A program made the position numbers and the translations under genes. DNA of 45,414 nucleotides, from the NCBI GenBank assembly GCA_017620525.1, contig JAGAUY010000034.1:1-45414 (forward strand), given 5' to 3'. Positions 8,285 through 41,805 of this stretch are shown here, one piece after another. Source of the DNA: Oscillospiraceae bacterium (GTDB taxonomy: Bacteria; Bacillota; Clostridia; Oscillospirales; Oscillospiraceae). Position 1 is the first letter of the stretch; each line of letters opens with the position of its first letter. The notes beneath the pieces were generated by a model, which did no database searches, was not told the DNA's origin, and worked only from the letters and a program-made list of their open reading frames with translations.

Positions 8285-8298
8285 ATCGCTGTATGGTT

Positions 8299-11200
8299 TT
8301 ACTTCAGAGCGCGGTACAGGAAGGTGACAACCTGTGCGCGGCTGCAGGGCGTGTTGACGCCGAAGACGGTTTCACTCAGGCCCGTGGTAATGCCGTTCTC
8401 AACTGCCCACAGAATCGCCTCAGTATAGAACTGCTCGTACGCAACATCTTCGAAGCGGCTCTCGGAATCGGTGGATTCGGGACAGCCGGCATAGCGCCAC
8501 AGGAAGGTAACGACCTGTGCGCGGCTGCAAATCTCATTGACACCGAAGGTGGCTTCATCAAGGCCGGTTGTGATTCCTTCTTCCACTGCCCACACGACAG
8601 CCTTGGAATAAAACTGATCTCTCTCCACGTCCGTGAAGCTGCAGGTCTGTGCCGCAGGTTCGGGACAGCCGGCTGCGCGCCACAGGAAGGTAACGATCTG
8701 AGCGCGGGTGCAGTCTTCATCCACGCCGAAGATGGTATCACTCAGGCCAGTGGTGATCTTCTGATCCACTGCCCACAGAACAGGCTCGGTGTAATACTCG
8801 CCGCTCAGTACATCGGTGAACGGATTATTGGAGTACTCGGAGCGCTCCTTTACGATATAGGAAGGAGCGTAAGCAGGCGCCAGAGCAGCCTTGTTGACGG
8901 TGGCTTCCACCACATCTTCTTCGGGCACCAGGATCAGGCCGGACATGGCGGGAATGGTGATGGAAGAAGTACCGCCGGGATACTTGGTACCGGTGATCAC
9001 ATCCACCAGCGTCTGCGCGACGCTGAACGATATGCTCACATCGCTGGAAGCGTTGTTGGCAAGGACACTGATGCGGGTATTCTCATCGCTGCGGATATAG
9101 CCCAGCAGATTGGCGTGATCCAGGTCCATGGGTTCCACCGTGCCGGTTCTCAGAGCGGGGTAAGCCTCGCGGATGGCTGCCAGAGATGCATACCACTCGA
9201 CCAGTTCCTGACTGCCCTTGCCCCATGCAAATGCGCGGCGGTCATCAGGATCATCAGCGCCAACCATGCCGATCTCGTCGCCATAGTAGATGGTGGGAGC
9301 GCCGGCATAGGTGAACTGCAGGAATGCCACCAGATACTGGCGGTCCTTTGCCAGCTGGGAAGTGGATTCGTAAGTGGGGAATGCGGCGCTGATGCTCTTG
9401 TCGGCACGGTCGTCGCCGATGCCGTCCAGATAGCTCAGGAGGCGGGTGGTGTCATGGGAACCCACCAGGTTCATCATGGCATAAAATGCTTCCTCGGGAT
9501 AACGCTCGCGGATCTTCTCCATAGCCTTGGCGGTATCGCCGGAAGCAGCACCCATGGCATAGGAGGTGACAGCATTGCGGAACTGGTAGTTCATGACGGA
9601 GTCATACATATCACCCATCAGATACTTGGTCGCATCGTCCCAGATCTCGCCGATGATGACAGCGTCGGAATCCAGAGCCTTGACGGAAGCGCGGAACTTC
9701 TGCCAGGTCTCGTCAGAAACTTCGTTGGCCACGTCCAGACGCCAGCCGTTGTTGCCCTTGGCGATCCAGTACTGGGTCACGCTGTCGTTTGCGTTGTTGT
9801 AAATGATCTCCTCCGCCCAGTTGCCGGTCTGGTACTCAGAACCGTTGGTGGAGTAGACAACGGGCATGGAGTCATAGCCCCACCAGCCCTCGTAGGCATA
9901 AACTTCCTTGCCGGCGCGCAGACCCACATGGTCAACAGTGCCTTCCATGGTTGCGGAAGAGACGGCGAACCACTCAGTGTAGGAATAGTCGGTGATGCCG
10001 TAGTTGTCGCCGAAGTATGCCTTGGCAGCAGTCTCAGCGGCATCCTGCTCAGCACCGTTTTCGCTCATATAGTCATAGACATATGCCCAGTAGGGATAAG
10101 CGCCGATCTTTTCGGAGGTGCCCAGGAATCTGTAGTAGCGGTCAAAATACACGGAATCATCAGAAACGTGGTTGAACACGCCGTCCAGGATGATGTGCAT
10201 ATCGTTGGCCTGCGCAGCAGCGACCAACTGCTCAAAGTCGCCCAGAGTACCCAGGATGGGGTCAATCTCGGTATAATCCACTGCATCATAGCGGTGGTTG
10301 GAGATGGACCAGAACACAGGGTTCAGATAAATCACGTTAACGCCCAGCGCCTTCAGATAGTCGATACGCTCAGTGATGCCCTCCAGGTCACCGCCGTAGA
10401 TCTCGTTGGACCATTCGCCGTCGCCGTAGTAAGCGCCGGTGGCCTTGTAGGTGGTTTCATCCAGCAGGCCTTCCTGCTCAGGGTTCTCGGGGATTGCGTA
10501 CCAGTCGGTGATGTACTCGTAGTCCACTTCACCGCGGGCCCAGGTCTGCGCCTGGTTGTTGCCCTCATTTCCGTCGAAGAAACGGTCGGGGAAGATCTGA
10601 TATACGACTGCATTCTTCATCCAGTCGGGAGTCTCGTAACCTGCCTGGTAGACGACCAGATCATAGGGAATCACATCCGTCAGATCGCAGCTCCTGCCTT
10701 CGCCATAGTAACCGTCATCATCGCCATAGACGCTGACGGCAGAGCCGTTGGACATAACGAAGTAGTAGTCATACTCGCCCATGCTGTCGATGACGGTGGT
10801 GCAGGTCCACAGACCGCTTTCGGCATTTTTCTCCATGGGAACGGAGGCGATGCCCTTGATCACCAGGACAGCGGAGGTGATGTCGTCTCCGGTGGCGATG
10901 GAGAAGGCCACTTCCTCGCCGGTTGCCACAGCGCCGAAGGGAGCCTTGTAGGCTTCATCCTGAGAGTTGTAGTAGATGGAAGCGGTGTCTACGGGCATAT
11001 TGGCGCCGTTGTGATAGAAGATACCGGTGACAGGATCGATGTAGAAGGTGACATCCTTGTCCTCTTCCAGTACAAATTCCGCGAATGCATATTCCTTGCC
11101 GTCGCAGGTAATGACCACATCGGAATAGGTGCCGGCCTTCATGGCGGCAGTGCCGCTGTAGATGCCGGTCAGGGCCTTGTCAGTCATCTCAGTAGTCTCC

Positions 11201-13257
11201 AGACCGGTGCCGGCAACGGATGCTTCCACGAACTTGTAGGTCACGCTGGTGACGGAGTTATGGCTGTTGTCGTTGTAGTAAACGGTAACATCCATGGTCT
11301 TGGGAACGGGAACCGCATAGTTTGCGCCGTCCTGCTCGCCGCCGACGCCGTAGTTTTCCGTCCAGGAACCGTTTACGGCAATCTTGTACTCGTAATTGGC
11401 AGCGGGCACATTCTCGAAGGTATAGACATACAGACCCAGAGCCTCATCATAGGTCATCTGGTTGGAACCTGCATCCCAGCTGGGGCCGGGGAAGGTGCCG
11501 GGGACATAGATTCTGCGGTTGGGATCGCTCCAACCTTCGGGAGCGGTGGAGGAGACATCGCTGCCCGCGACCCACAGCTCGGTGTTGAAGTTCAGGTCGC
11601 CGGTCCACAGGTCGCCGGTCTGGCTTCCGCTGCCGTTATTGAAGATGAAGTTGAAGCCGGTGCTGGTATCCTTGGAAATGGTCAGGTCGTACCAGCCGGC
11701 ATTGGCCTCATTCAGGCTGATCTCAGCGCCAGGCCAGGTATTGAAGGCTTCATAGCCGGGGATCGCGGAACTGTTGTTGAACGGATCCCAGACGTAGGCA
11801 TTGACTTTGCTCCAGTTTTCCGCATTCTTGAAATGGATCACGGTGGTATAGCCAGGCTTCTCAGTGTAGACGGTGTTGTCCACGACCCACAGCTCGGTAC
11901 TACCGCTGATCTCGCCGGTGGTCAGGTCGCTGGTCTGGCCGCCGGTGCCGTTAAAGATGAAGTTGAACTGCTTCTCAGTTTCAACCACCATATCGTACCA
12001 GCCGTCGCCGTCCGCATCGCTGACGGGCTTGCCGGGCCAGGCGTTATAGTCGCCGTAGCCGGAGACTGCACCGCCGCTGGTGCTCCAGAGGTAAACGTTG
12101 ATGCTGTCGCCCCAGCCTGCAGGTTTCATGAAGTGCAGGGTCACGGCCGTGGGAGCTGCCCAGTCCTCGGGTGCAGTGCTGCTGACCGCGCCGCCGGTGA
12201 CCCACAGCTCCACGTTGCCGGACAGCGCGCCGGTGGACAGGTCTGCAGTCTGAGCGCCGTTGCCGTTATTATTGAAGATAAAGCCGCAGCCGTTGGCATC
12301 GGTGGTCACGACCGCATCATACCAGCCGGAATTGTCTTCGTTTGCAGCAGCAGGAGTACCGGGCCAATCGCCCAGCAGAGCGCCGCCGTCATTCCACGCG
12401 TAGGCGCAGACTTCCGCCCAGTTTTCGGTATTGTGATAATGGATGGTAGCGGTGTAGGAAACCTCATCCTCCCCACCACCCTCGTCGCCGGAATCGGCCT
12501 TGGTGTAGCTCAGGGTCAGCGTGCCGTCATCATTGACAACCAGCGTGAAGGTCAGTTCCACATTGCCGGGAACGAACATCTTCTCGGAGGTGCCCTCATT
12601 GGTATTCTTCAGAGTGACGGAGGTATCCGCACAGTAGGACTCTGCCATATACCAGTTGGCATTGTCGCCGGTCTTGACGAACACATAGCTGTCCTTGGTA
12701 AAGGTGGCGACCAGAATGCCGTCCACGAACTTATACTCGCCCAGGTTGGCATAATCGGCCTCGCAGCCGTAATCCGCGCCATTGATATAGCCGATCAGAT
12801 AGTAATCCACGGCAGGTTCCTCTTGCGCATTGGCGTAGCTCAGCGTCAGGGAACCATCGTCATTGACTGCCAGGGTGAAGGTCAGTTCCACATTGCCGGG
12901 AACGAACATCTTCTCGGAGGTGCCCTCATTGGTATTCTTCAGAGTGACGGAGGTATCCGTGCAATAGGACTCTGCCATATACCAGTTGGCATTGTCGGTG
13001 GTCTTTACAAAGACATAGCTGTCCTGCGTAAAGGTGACTGTCAGCTTGCCGTCCACAAAGCGGTAATCGCCGGGGTTGGCATAGTCACCCTCACAGCCGT
13101 GGTCCGCGCCGTTGATGAAGCCGATCAGACTGTATTCGGTTTCCTCAGCCGCCTGGACAAGGGATGCCGCGGGCACCAGGCTCAGCAGCATAAACAACGC
13201 CAGCGCCAGGCTCAACACCCGCTTGAAAAGATTGCCGCACTGCAGCTTCTTCTCCAT
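8299..13257 (-). CDS. Secreted SLH-anchored GH13 amylopullulanase with starch-binding modules
   Basis: The 1652-residue exported enzyme breaks down starch or related alpha-glucans at the cell surface. After a signal peptide (residues 1-37) come two tandem copies of an unassigned domain of about 110 residues. Then three CBM26-like starch-binding modules (about 265-575), a pullulanase-type accessory module, a CBM34-like region and a GH13 catalytic domain (about 890-1400) follow. Catalytic motifs are DGVFNH (Asp1025), GWRLDV (nucleophile Asp1175), GEIWDD (acid Glu1204) and GSHDTT (Asp1269). Three SLH repeats (about 1480-1652) anchor it to the cell wall. The start at 13257 has GAAAGGAAGG upstream and lies downstream of the promoter; the longer open frame to 13374 would start before the promoter. 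Confidence 0.93.
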   Translation of the reverse strand: MEKKLQCGNLFKRVLSLALALFMLLSLVPAASLVQAAEETEYSLIGFINGADHGCEGDYANPGDYRFVDGKLTVTFTQDSYVFVKTTDNANWYMAESYCTDTSVTLKNTNEGTSEKMFVPGNVELTFTLAVNDDGSLTLSYANAQEEPAVDYYLIGYINGADYGCEADYANLGEYKFVDGILVATFTKDSYVFVKTGDNANWYMAESYCADTSVTLKNTNEGTSEKMFVPGNVELTFTLVVNDDGTLTLSYTKADSGDEGGGEDEVSYTATIHYHNTENWAEVCAYAWNDGGALLGDWPGTPAAANEDNSGWYDAVVTTDANGCGFIFNNNGNGAQTADLSTGALSGNVELWVTGGAVSSTAPEDWAAPTAVTLHFMKPAGWGDSINVYLWSTSGGAVSGYGDYNAWPGKPVSDADGDGWYDMVVETEKQFNFIFNGTGGQTSDLTTGEISGSTELWVVDNTVYTEKPGYTTVIHFKNAENWSKVNAYVWDPFNNSSAIPGYEAFNTWPGAEISLNEANAGWYDLTISKDTSTGFNFIFNNGSGSQTGDLWTGDLNFNTELWVAGSDVSSTAPEGWSDPNRRIYVPGTFPGPSWDAGSNQMTYDEALGLYVYTFENVPAANYEYKIAVNGSWTENYGVGGEQDGANYAVPVPKTMDVTVYYNDNSHNSVTSVTYKFVEASVAGTGLETTEMTDKALTGIYSGTAAMKAGTYSDVVITCDGKEYAFAEFVLEEDKDVTFYIDPVTGIFYHNGANMPVDTASIYYNSQDEAYKAPFGAVATGEEVAFSIATGDDITSAVLVIKGIASVPMEKNAESGLWTCTTVIDSMGEYDYYFVMSNGSAVSVYGDDDGYYGEGRSCDLTDVIPYDLVVYQAGYETPDWMKNAVVYQIFPDRFFDGNEGNNQAQTWARGEVDYEYITDWYAIPENPEQEGLLDETTYKATGAYYGDGEWSNEIYGGDLEGITERIDYLKALGVNVIYLNPVFWSISNHRYDAVDYTEIDPILGTLGDFEQLVAAAQANDMHIILDGVFNHVSDDSVYFDRYYRFLGTSEKIGAYPYWAYVYDYMSENGAEQDAAETAAKAYFGDNYGITDYSYTEWFAVSSATMEGTVDHVGLRAGKEVYAYEGWWGYDSMPVVYSTNGSEYQTGNWAEEIIYNNANDSVTQYWIAKGNNGWRLDVANEVSDETWQKFRASVKALDSDAVIIGEIWDDATKYLMGDMYDSVMNYQFRNAVTSYAMGAASGDTAKAMEKIRERYPEEAFYAMMNLVGSHDTTRLLSYLDGIGDDRADKSISAAFPTYESTSQLAKDRQYLVAFLQFTYAGAPTIYYGDEIGMVGADDPDDRRAFAWGKGSQELVEWYASLAAIREAYPALRTGTVEPMDLDHANLLGYIRSDENTRISVLANNASSDVSISFSVAQTLVDVITGTKYPGGTSSITIPAMSGLILVPEEDVVEATVNKAALAPAYAPSYIVKERSEYSNNPFTDVLSGEYYTEPVLWAVDQKITTGLSDTIFGVDEDCTRAQIVTFLWRAAGCPEPAAQTCSFTDVERDQFYSKAVVWAVEEGITTGLDEATFGVNEICSRAQVVTFLWRYAGCPESTDSESRFEDVAYEQFYTEAILWAVENGITTGLSETVFGVNTPCSRAQVVTFLYRALK
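12545..12959. repeat. 85-bp exact direct repeat within the amylopullulanase gene
   Basis: Positions 12545-12629 and 12875-12959 are identical over 85 bases and are 330 bases (110 codons) apart. They lie in the two N-terminal copies of the unassigned domain. The surrounding sequence is similar but less exact, so the domain duplication is recent or is being kept alike by gene conversion. Confidence 0.9.
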
Positions 13258-13305
13258 TTGTATCCTTCCTTTCATATCGTCACGATTTGCGCACTGCGCA
13301 GTTTC

Positions 13306-13334
13306 ATTATAATTGAAACGTTTCCAGTTTACAA
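13306..13334 (-). promoter_or_regulatory. Amylopullulanase promoter with palindromic operator in the spacer
   Basis: On the minus strand TTGTAA (13329-13334), a 17-base spacer and TATAAT (13306-13311) form a good sigma-A promoter. The spacer contains the perfect 10-bp palindrome GAAACGTTTC (13315-13324), a core typical of LacI-family regulators such as CcpA or maltose repressors. Binding there would block RNA polymerase, so carbon-source repression is likely (inference). The predicted leader is about 42 bases. Confidence 0.8.
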
Positions 13335-13400
13335 TTGTGACTCCGCATAAAATTGGAAGAACGATACTGAGCATTATGACGGACGGATTCGCACAGTATC

Positions 13401-17128: not shown

Positions 17129-17170
17129 CCCGGCAAAAGAAAACGCCCCTTGCGGAGCGGTGGTATATCC

Positions 17171-17388
17171 AAAAAGAGAAGCAACCCTTGACTGATCAGT
17201 TCATCACGCTGAAAAGTCAAGGGTTACTTCATTGAATTTTTGGTATCTAACATCGCTGGTTAACCTCTCTTTCTACAGGATCGACTCCGGCTTTCATCTG
17301 ACAAATTTGTACACTTTTTAGGAGGTTGAAAAGAAATGATAAGCCGTCATCTTGAAGATTTACCTGTACATTGGTATCACCTCTTTGT
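17171..17388 (-). ncRNA. Candidate small RNA of the dispersed element, copy 1
   Basis: On the minus strand TTGAAA (17418-17423), a 17-base spacer and TATTAT (17395-17400) form a promoter. The predicted RNA has GAGGTG six bases before a start-stop frame ATG-TAC-AGG-TAA (17360-17371, Met-Tyr-Arg). It also has a second short frame of nine codons (17224-17253, MLDTKNSMK) behind AGGTTAACC. It ends in a 16-bp hairpin (17178-17193 with 17215-17230, one G-T pair) and a TCTTTTT run. The RNA is about 218 bases. Expression and role are inferred. Confidence 0.55.
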
Positions 17389-17498
17389 AGCTTTATAATA
17401 CCCTCCCGTGTTCCGGTTTTCAAGATGGGATAATCCACAAGAAAGTTCTTCTATTCTGGTGCAAACAGCAGAAATAAAGATCATTCTCCAAACAAAGA

Positions 17499-17565
17499 TT
17501 GACAGGAAATGTAAGCCGTGTTATTATGAATATGTTGGGGTGGTCTACGGCTGCTCCAACTTTTT
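17499..17565 (+). promoter_or_regulatory. Promoter running directly into a hairpin (element copy 1, rightward unit)
   Basis: TTGACA (17499-17504), a 17-base spacer and TATTAT (17522-17527) are followed within seven bases by an 11-bp stem with several G-U pairs (17534-17544 with 17550-17560) and TTTTT. The RNA would stop after about 30 bases or act as an attenuated leader. The LRR/SLH gene starts 80 bases later. A second weak promoter, TGGACT-17-TACCAT at about 17577-17605, could start it beyond the hairpin. Confidence 0.6.
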
Positions 17566-17645
17566 GCTATTTCGGTGGACTTTCCGGAACGGCTGTGCTA
17601 CCATAAAAGCACATTTATCCCATCTGATCCGAGGAGGAAAAAACG

Positions 17646-24551: not shown

Positions 24552-24580
24552 GAGGTTTTCCAACAATTCTTGCCCCGGGC

Positions 24581-24724
24581 AAAAAAGAAATAACCCTCGA
24601 TCTGTTACCTAATCACTGTAACGATCGAGGGTTATTTCATGAAGTTGTTGGGTTCCATCTATGGTTAACCTCGCTTTCTTCAGTATGGGAGTTGGTTAGT
24701 ACATTGGACTCACTCCTTTTTTGT
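24581..24724 (-). ncRNA. Candidate small RNA of the dispersed element, copy 2
   Basis: On the minus strand TTGAAA (24754-24759), a 17-base spacer and TATCAT (24731-24736) form the promoter. The RNA would carry AAGGAG eight bases before ATG-TAC-TAA (24696-24704, Met-Tyr-stop). CTGAAGAAAG and GAGGTTAACC follow, then a second frame of eight codons (24632-24658, MEPNNFMK). It ends in a perfect 16-bp hairpin (24587-24602 with 24623-24638) and TTTTTT. Length is about 145 bases. The stop codon of the second frame lies inside the terminator stem, as in copy 1. Confidence 0.6.
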
Positions 24725-24834
24725 ATTATTATGATAACCCCGGCAGGCACCTTTTTCAAGATGGGATATTTCATAATAAAGTTCCGAATCAGCTGTGCAA
24801 ACAGGAGAAATACCGCTCTTGTGTCAAGTAAAGA

Positions 24835-24909
24835 TTGACACACCGCAACGGCTGTGCTATGATGAATATGTTGGGGCGGTTTCCTGAGACCGCTCCAACA
24901 TTTTATTTT
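24835..24909 (+). promoter_or_regulatory. Promoter running directly into a hairpin (element copy 2, rightward unit)
   Basis: TTGACA (24835-24840), a 17-base spacer and TATGAT (24858-24863) are followed at once by an 11-bp stem (24870-24880 with 24889-24899, one G-U pair) and TTTTATTTT. Transcription should stop after about 35 bases unless the hairpin is prevented. The next gene downstream is the MetV-RnfC fusion. Confidence 0.65.
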
Positions 24910-25129
24910 CCCCTTATCCCGTGTCAAAAAATGGATTGTTTTATCCAAAGAAATTAAGATTGGACTAGATAACGCGAACATCATGTGCTATACTGAATAT
25001 GTGTTATTATATCGATAACGCCAGCCCGAATGCTTAACCTGTTTGTTTACGGTTTTCAAAGTGCAGAGGTTGAAAAACGGAAGCAGATAAGTATAAAGGT
25101 CATCATCAATCTGTAAGGAAGGTGAGCAA
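24910..25129 (+). promoter_or_regulatory. Leader region of the MetV-RnfC operon
   Basis: TATACT at 24989-24994 is followed by GAATATGTG, the same bases that follow the -10 of the element's rightward unit, so this looks like a second, diverged copy of that promoter. TTGGAC at 24960 is too far away (23 bases) to be a normal -35. GTTAT-N7-ATAAC can form a small hairpin at about 25001-25017. The rest, up to the ribosome site GGAAGGTG, shows no clear structure. Confidence 0.4.
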
Positions 25130-41520: not shown

Positions 41521-41586
41521 GCAAAAAAGCAGCCATACAGGCTGCCCAGCATTAATATCATATCACACAAAAACATCACTTGTCTA
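41521..41586 (-). promoter_or_regulatory. Promoter running into a hairpin (element copy 3, leftward unit), leader of the acyltransferase gene
   Basis: On the minus strand TAGACA (41581-41586), an 18-base spacer and TATGAT (41557-41562) are followed within about 10 bases by GCAGCC-TGTAT-GGCTGC and TTTTTT (41523-41542). The acyltransferase start codon is only 20 bases further. The gene should therefore be expressed only if the terminator is avoided or weak. Confidence 0.6.
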
Positions 41587-41670
41587 TTCTCATTTTATCT
41601 GAGAATTACACTTTTTTCTTATGAAACATCCCATCTTGAATCGGGCAGTTTCCGCGTTATTATGAAAATA

Positions 41671-41804
41671 CAAAAGACATAAGTCCAATGCACTAAGAAA
41701 ACTCCATTCTGAAGAAAGTAATTGTATCGAAGCTCATCGTCCGGGGATCCACATAAAAAGATGCCCTCCCAAGCAGGATTGCACTTGGGAGGGTTGTTTC
41801 ATTT
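41671..41804 (+). ncRNA. Candidate small RNA of the dispersed element, copy 3
   Basis: TTGAAT (41636-41641), a 16-base spacer and TATTAT (41658-41663) form the promoter. The RNA carries ATG-CAC-TAA (41688-41696, Met-His-stop) in the context AGTCCAATG, as in copy 2, but the ribosome site is poor here. It ends in a 10-bp hairpin (CCCTCCCAAG 41764-41773 with CTTGGGAGGG 41784-41793) and a T-rich run. Length is about 134 bases. Confidence 0.5.
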
Positions 41805-41805
41805 A

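Follow-up and report, generated by a model that had tools for sequence, protein, structure and literature searches.

What kind of gene is encoded by a short DNA element that recurs within a single bacterial contig and carries two promoters pointing in opposite directions? The question arises from a stretch of 45,414 nucleotides from an Oscillospiraceae bacterium (referred to as the window in the following), in which such an element is found at positions 17170-17566, 24580-24909 and, inverted, 41521-41805 (copies 1 to 3). In a first-pass annotation, it was described as a dispersed element made up of two divergently oriented transcription units, whose blocks are kept while the filler sequence between them varies, and this description proved right. 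By direct reading, we likewise found the promoter of a long RNA with its -35 hexamer inside CCCATCTTGAA, the hairpin at the end of this RNA and, on the other side, a promoter with a hairpin and a T tract immediately after it, all as annotated. The attribute 'non-coding', however, is incomplete, as it overlooked two short ORFs, each preceded by a very strong ribosome site. As set out below, we tentatively favor the reading that the element is a stand-alone gene for a small structured regulatory RNA, which would be acted on by ribosomes at both ends.

The relatedness of the three copies is beyond chance. With copy 2 as a blastn query against its own genome, parts of copy 1 were matched at E-values of 3.8e-16 and 2.1e-6 and a part of copy 3 at 1.8e-10, and contigs C16 and C35 of this genome carry additional matches. 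The long RNA of copies 1 and 2 is assigned to the minus strand and their very short RNA to the plus strand; copy 3 is inverted (Table 1). While all three annotated copies are present, they are not equivalent: judged by their sequence, copies 1 and 2 are intact and copy 3 is a decayed relic, since both of its Shine-Dalgarno (SD) sites and ORF 2 are gone by direct reading and the family model, run with filters off, gave 17 hits at E<=10, none of them at copy 3. The whole predicted long RNA of copy 2 (24578-24730) has a fold z-score of -6.5. Just past this copy, at 24960-25020, TGTGCTATACTGAATATGTG resembles the element's divergent promoter and start, and this stretch is probably the remnant of a further copy.

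Table 1. Predicted features of the element in the window, with the basis of each assignment where given.
Copy	Feature	Position	Strand	Details and basis
1	TIR1 ACAAAGAGGTGATACC	17373..17388	-	sequence
1	micro-ORF 1, ATG TAC AGG TAA (M-Y-R-stop)	17360..17371	-	
1	micro-ORF 2, MLDTKNSMK-stop	17224..17253	-	stop in stem
1	terminator hairpin	17178..17230	-	
1	long-RNA promoter	17395..17423	-	TTGAAA 17418-17423, TATTAT 17395-17400; direct reading
1	divergent promoter	17499..17527	+	TTGACA 17499-17504, TATTAT 17522-17527; direct reading
1	predicted ultra-short transcript GTTGGGGTGG, hairpin and T tract	17534..17565	+	direct reading
2	TIR1, 5'-proximal ribosome site AAAAAAGGAGTGAGTCC	24706..24722	-	near-full-length complement of 16S 3' tail; duplex -15.4 kcal/mol; direct reading
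2	micro-ORF 1, ATG TAC TAA (M-Y-stop)	24696..24704	-	same kind of ORF in 89/95 TIR1-recognized copies
2	TIR2, second ribosome site AGAAAGCGAGGTTAACC	24663..24679	-	sequence, anti-SD duplex energy
2	micro-ORF 2, MEPNNFMK-stop	24632..24658	-	stop 24632-24634 inside terminator stem
2	terminator hairpin of long RNA	24587..24638; T tract 24581-24586	-	fold and covariation
2	long-RNA promoter	24731..24759	-	-35 TTGAAA 24754-24759, -10 TATCAT 24731-24736, spacer 17; direct reading and conservation in relatives
2	conserved CCCATC by long-RNA promoter	24760-24765	-	direct reading and conservation
2	divergent promoter	24835..24863	+	TTGACA 24835-24840, TATGAT 24858-24863, spacer 17; direct reading
2	predicted ultra-short transcript GTTGGGGCGG..., hairpin and T tract	24870..24909	+	fold z -4.3 for 24873-24910
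3	decayed relic	41523..41797	+	promoter remnants and both end hairpins kept; ORF 1 relic ATGCACTAA at 41688-41696

The first-pass annotation had proposed to search relatives by blastn and with covariance models, and these searches returned numerous additional copies from relatives. A covariance model built on 16 sequences of the RNA's 3' part had hits at E<=0.01 in 30 of the 37 genomes from the window's genus, with up to eight per genome (some being the same hairpin read on the opposite strand), and in three of 23 other genomes of the order. In an order-wide draw at E<=1e-4, it had hits in 42 of 295 genomes, belonging to 27 of 148 genera. A broader model built on 44 sequences, used at the same threshold, had hits in 36 of 150 genomes (24 of 82 genera) of the family and in 12 of 392 genomes, the own genome included, from nine of 220 genera of the class. 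In the large searches, filters were stricter and 10 to 26 candidates were scored per genome, so that these genome counts are lower bounds and the E-values rough. The spread of this RNA family through the family, the order and the class Clostridia is patchy. Scanning named genomes for a sequence pattern yielded 84 stretches and 80 listed loci, six of them titled Faecousia and the others mostly Oscillospiraceae or Clostridia metagenome-assembled genomes; a pair of copies in one genome of the window's genus (G001, L055) has a spacing like that of two pairs on Candidatus Faecousia contigs (L115 and L164), which makes Candidatus Faecousia the probable identity of this genus. The top-scoring copy among the pattern loci sits on a contig titled Bacteroidaceae (JAFUKV010000005.1), for which mis-binning seems likelier than transfer.

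From these searches, we compiled a set of copies for the following analyses. In the window together with 60 fetched places, 93 matches were obtained, of which 73 were retained after removal of 20 opposite-strand re-readings of hairpins, and the 80 pattern loci contained 99 matches, of which 92 were retained after removal of six such re-readings and one match that was cut off. The combined 165 hits represent 142 distinct sequences, most of them from the window's genus, with L108 and L109 from other genera.

Across these copies, the long RNA has a recurrent layout: a near-consensus promoter is followed by a ribosome site (TIR1) with ORF 1, a variable middle domain, and a second ribosome site (TIR2) with ORF 2, whose stop codon is paired in the terminator stem. 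TIR1 begins a few bases after the predicted RNA start, and ORF 1 lies ~20 bases from it. We recognized TIR1 in 95 of the 142 copies; in the other 47, it is missing or diverged beyond recognition, and two of these had less than 200 bases of upstream sequence. An ATG-started ORF of just two or three codons follows in 89 of the 95, encoding mainly MYR (33), MY (18), MI (18), MYT (6) and MYK (3). Likewise, 16 of 18 copies from other genera have a TIR1, and in 15 of these 16, ORF 1 is no longer than three codons (e.g. MRK, MRN, MYK, MEE, MKK). The recurrence of such ORFs in other orders suggests that selection can keep ORFs of two or three codons.

Both ribosome sites are unusually strong. Against a 16S tail taken from one genome of the genus (the only match among 61 genomes), the median anti-SD duplex energy was -16.1 kcal/mol for TIR1 (n=87, at most two substitutions) and -15.8 kcal/mol for TIR2 (n=142), compared to -10.7 kcal/mol for 489 predicted genes scored at the best of several starts, ~6% of which are as strong as the TIRs; these strengths are partly ascertained, as TIR1 was searched by resemblance to three consensus strings chosen by eye, with up to four substitutions (up to two for the energies), and TIR2 was included in both the search models and the pattern scan, whose loci were selected for this site. 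Outside the genus, TIR2 is weaker (median -13.9). Three differently built types of TIR1 have nearly equal duplex energies with bulges at different places (among at least 12 rows). TIR1 also pairs with RNA downstream of it above the shuffled level in 69 of 75 copies (0.64 vs 0.50).

Strong sites in front of minimal ORFs are what one would expect of a ribosome or tRNA sponge, that is, an RNA that occupies 30S subunits and runs minigenes (M-Y, M-I, M-Y-R) which, like those of lambda bar, bind ribosomes or strand peptidyl-tRNA, thereby slowing global translation in certain conditions; the short divergent RNA might act as the partner of such a sponge. Among minigenes, those of two codons behind a strong SD are reported to be the most toxic (PMC8708949), and the fact that genomes in the window's genus have several copies each points in the same direction. 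A sponge, however, has no need for a conserved middle domain or for a stop codon locked in the terminator stem, and many genomes of other genera had one hit (a lower bound, with 13 or 26 candidates scored per genome). Furthermore, there is little specific pairing between short and long RNA (-13.3 vs -12.5 for shuffled and -12.9 for non-cognate partners, better than shuffled in 51 of 81 cases). We regard this explanation as unlikely, albeit as the foremost of the alternatives.

The regulatory RNA gene that we favor draws support from the 3' end of the long RNA as well as from the 5' features described above. ORF 2, which starts from an ATG after the site AGAAAGnGAGGTTAACC, has 7-10 codons in 139 of the 142 distinct copies; one has 11 and two have 25 and 26. 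It ends with TGA in 76, TAA in 55 and TAG in nine of them. Outside the genus, ORF 2 has 6-11 codons in all 62 copies fetched (40 genera) under a lenient rule that took the first suitable ATG, GTG or TTG; L255 and L277 were omitted from this set, as their second ribosome site is not at the expected place. The stop codon is the exact complement of the opposite arm of the stem in 151 of 164 scored copies (TGA/TCA in 78, TAA/TTA in 64 and TAG/CTA in nine), after two of the 168 examined had been dropped for want of a short ORF and two for want of a clear arm. The same holds for 55 of the 62 copies outside the window's genus; 26 of the 62 enter both counts.

The compensatory changes that the first-pass annotation had suggested looking for in the hairpins are present in the terminator. 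In alignment A4, which was not fitted to the structure, 98.0% of the cells of the stem are paired, 14 of its 16 pairs have changed on both sides, and the covariation exceeds that of all 500 shuffles and of all slid controls. A stop codon that covaries with its own terminator is an unusually clear lock between coding and structure.

Could the peptide itself be the product? In that case, the element would encode the mRNA of a functional micropeptide of 9-10 residues with the consensus MLDxKSEQK or MIEPKNSxK. The recurrence of a short ORF 2, among the 142 copies as well as in those from 40 other genera, is consistent with this, and so is an acidic residue 3 in all 90 distinct nine-codon ORFs. Over codons 2-8 of these same ORFs, however, pN/pS is ~1.1, a value from non-independent pairs with possible saturation among paralogues; the length varies from 7 to 10 codons, the last codons serve the stem, and no export signal is apparent by eye. 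The amino acids of this peptide thus seem little constrained, and a functional micropeptide is improbable. Given the preserved match between stop and arm and the pN/pS of ~1.1, the position of the stop would appear to matter more than the peptide, and selection seems to act more on the act and end point of translation than on its product.

Predicted translation of ORF 2 overlaps the terminator, and a stop codon in the terminator stem is the anatomy expected of a cis-acting ribosome-mediated attenuator, in which the position of the ribosome on ORF 2 would set readthrough into the next gene; a uORF attenuator lies upstream of hflXr (PMC6310831). An attenuator, however, should have a consistent gene downstream of its terminator. 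According to our own gene caller, the gene past the terminator lies on the same strand in 57, on the opposite strand in 73 and is missing in 12 of the 142 copies, and four similar copies are accompanied by three different downstream sequences. No recurrent neighbor family was found at 27 loci from other genera beyond six two-locus matches. This explanation is therefore improbable as well, and we place it below the micropeptide. For lack of a recurrent neighbor and given the mixed strands, the element looks like a stand-alone transcript rather than a leader. It also tends to avoid operons, since its flanking genes are less often co-directional (50 of 120) than gene pairs in the same loci (526 of 852). 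In one genome (G022), an aspartyl-tRNA-synthetase-like gene, named by protein reading, is followed by another gene and then by the element; in the window, it is followed directly by copy 1.

Less credible still is a mobile or recombining MITE-like repeat with outward terminators as insulation: several copies per genome, five of them within ~3 kb in one genome, the different downstream sequences beside similar copies and the relic in the window would suit it, but we noticed no terminal repeats or target duplications by eye, found no clean empty site for three neighbor genes each searched in 36 genomes and no viral contig stretch matching two exact patterns, and saw an upstream coding sequence at the element that is common to four genomes as well as covariation and ORF conservation across genera. 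Mobility of the element is neither shown nor needed. The alternatives rank in the order in which they were presented, from the sponge through the peptide and the attenuator to the mobile repeat. The five same-strand model hits within ~3 kb (L282, G848:C56:17500-23500), which have an ORF 2 of 8-9 codons and a shorter stem, represent a local expansion within a different genus of this family.

On the divergent side, a loose pattern for the promoter and a TTGGG-like start was matched in 87 of the 95 TIR1-bearing copies. As this pattern had no shuffled control, only its distance to TIR1, 107-108 bases in 58 of the 87, argues for the promoter. The spacer is 17 or 18 in 82 of them (15-19 permitted). 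Between the two promoters lie the conserved blocks TTTCT..TTTGCAc and TTCCAtcTTG.AAA. A hairpin with TTTT follows within ~50 bases after 55 of 81 divergent starts (no shuffled control); an immediate terminator is thus frequent, though not present in every copy. Pairing of the short with the long RNA in trans was rejected as weak and of little specificity. By eye, a TCCATYTTGCAMAA-like motif seems to occur on the consensus twice between the promoters (24754-24834 of the window and relatives), once over the -35 hexamer of the long RNA, and is a possible operator pair.

The middle domain of the long RNA can be as short as ~20 bases or reach several hundred. In an alignment of 12 copies from other genera, most have ACACGRCGGTGT..ACG..ATATAGAT, ATTCGCCTTTTGC and TTCTCnTTAGAGAA in this domain. 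A related hairpin with a GCTnA-like loop occupies the expected place in 41 of 168 stretches, and there were 11 more hits elsewhere; the script required the loop and complementary arms, its covariation is therefore not independent, and none is claimed. The analysis turned up no target or ligand for the middle domain, and complementarity between the conserved ORF 2 RNA and one 16S-23S stretch was at the level of shuffles (11 of 14 matched vs 10-11).

How would a stand-alone regulatory RNA with these parts work? The sequence evidence for the RNA and its ORFs is strong; its mechanism and target are inferences. Given two strong sites and a stop built into the end hairpin, the RNA is probably under the control of ribosomes at either end. 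Occupancy of TIR1 by a ribosome or a 30S subunit would shield the RNA from decay at its 5' end, in a manner like that of Stab-SD, and would hold a 5' hairpin open, while a ribosome terminating at the stop of ORF 2 would melt the lower half of the terminator stem. The amount and the 3' end of the RNA would thereby report ribosome supply, and the middle domain would be the likely effector, acting in trans. A broader proposal, which is possible but which we hold more loosely, is that of a Clostridia-wide class of ribosome-gated regulatory RNAs, in which the 5' minigene with its nearly complete anti-SD complement and the stop in the terminator would form a direct sensor of ribosome supply, the variable middle the output, and the divergent promoter pair a built-in control. 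If true, gut bacteria would offer a natural readout of their ribosome supply, in the form of an RNA, that lends itself to testing.

Each known kind of system that we compared shares one or two features with the element, and none has all of them. SgrS and RNAIII are dual-function small RNAs, each coding for a single functional peptide some tens of residues long; they share the combination of a small RNA with an ORF, whereas the element has two micro-ORFs with little peptide constraint. The erm and vmlR leaders are ribosome-mediated transcription attenuators. With these leaders and with rli80-hflXr, where ribosome position can change hairpin folding (PMC6310831), the element shares a short ORF and a terminator; by contrast, it comes without a recurrent downstream gene, has its stop within the stem and covarying with it, and possesses a separate 5' minigene. 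Two-codon minigenes such as lambda bar and axe-txe mg2 (PMC8708949) have the 2-3 codon ORF and the strong SD that we also find here, but the compared cases lie in the leaders of other genes, whereas those of the element make up the conserved 5' end of an RNA that is structured and stands alone. Finally, a strong SD near the 5' end can protect an RNA even without a start codon (Stab-SD of the cryIIIA leader in Bacillus; PMC3997798). The element shares such a site, given its predicted start; here, however, the site precedes a 2-3 codon ORF, approaches the length of the 16S tail, and belongs to a short stand-alone RNA with a second site.

The first-pass annotation had also recognized no known RNA, which agrees with Rfam 15: at the gathering cut-off, no family was assigned to the element in the window, at 13 loci from the genus or order and at 15 loci from other genera, where only tRNAs and one Gut-1 RNA ~200 bases past a copy were found. 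A permissive scan of three single stretches gave below-cut-off hits only. The RNA family is thus unrecognized by Rfam 15 in the stretches scanned. Likewise, we found no prior description in the largely open-access literature searched or in passages of two published RNA screens. At a locus from another order (L271, 1687-1877), a copy is directly followed downstream by a tRNA and a Gut-1 RNA (RF01706). Elsewhere in the window, positions 8293-13374 contain very long ORFs on both strands (1691 codons on the minus and 1685 on the plus strand), and this stretch is rich in direct repeats of the families D1, D2 and D5.
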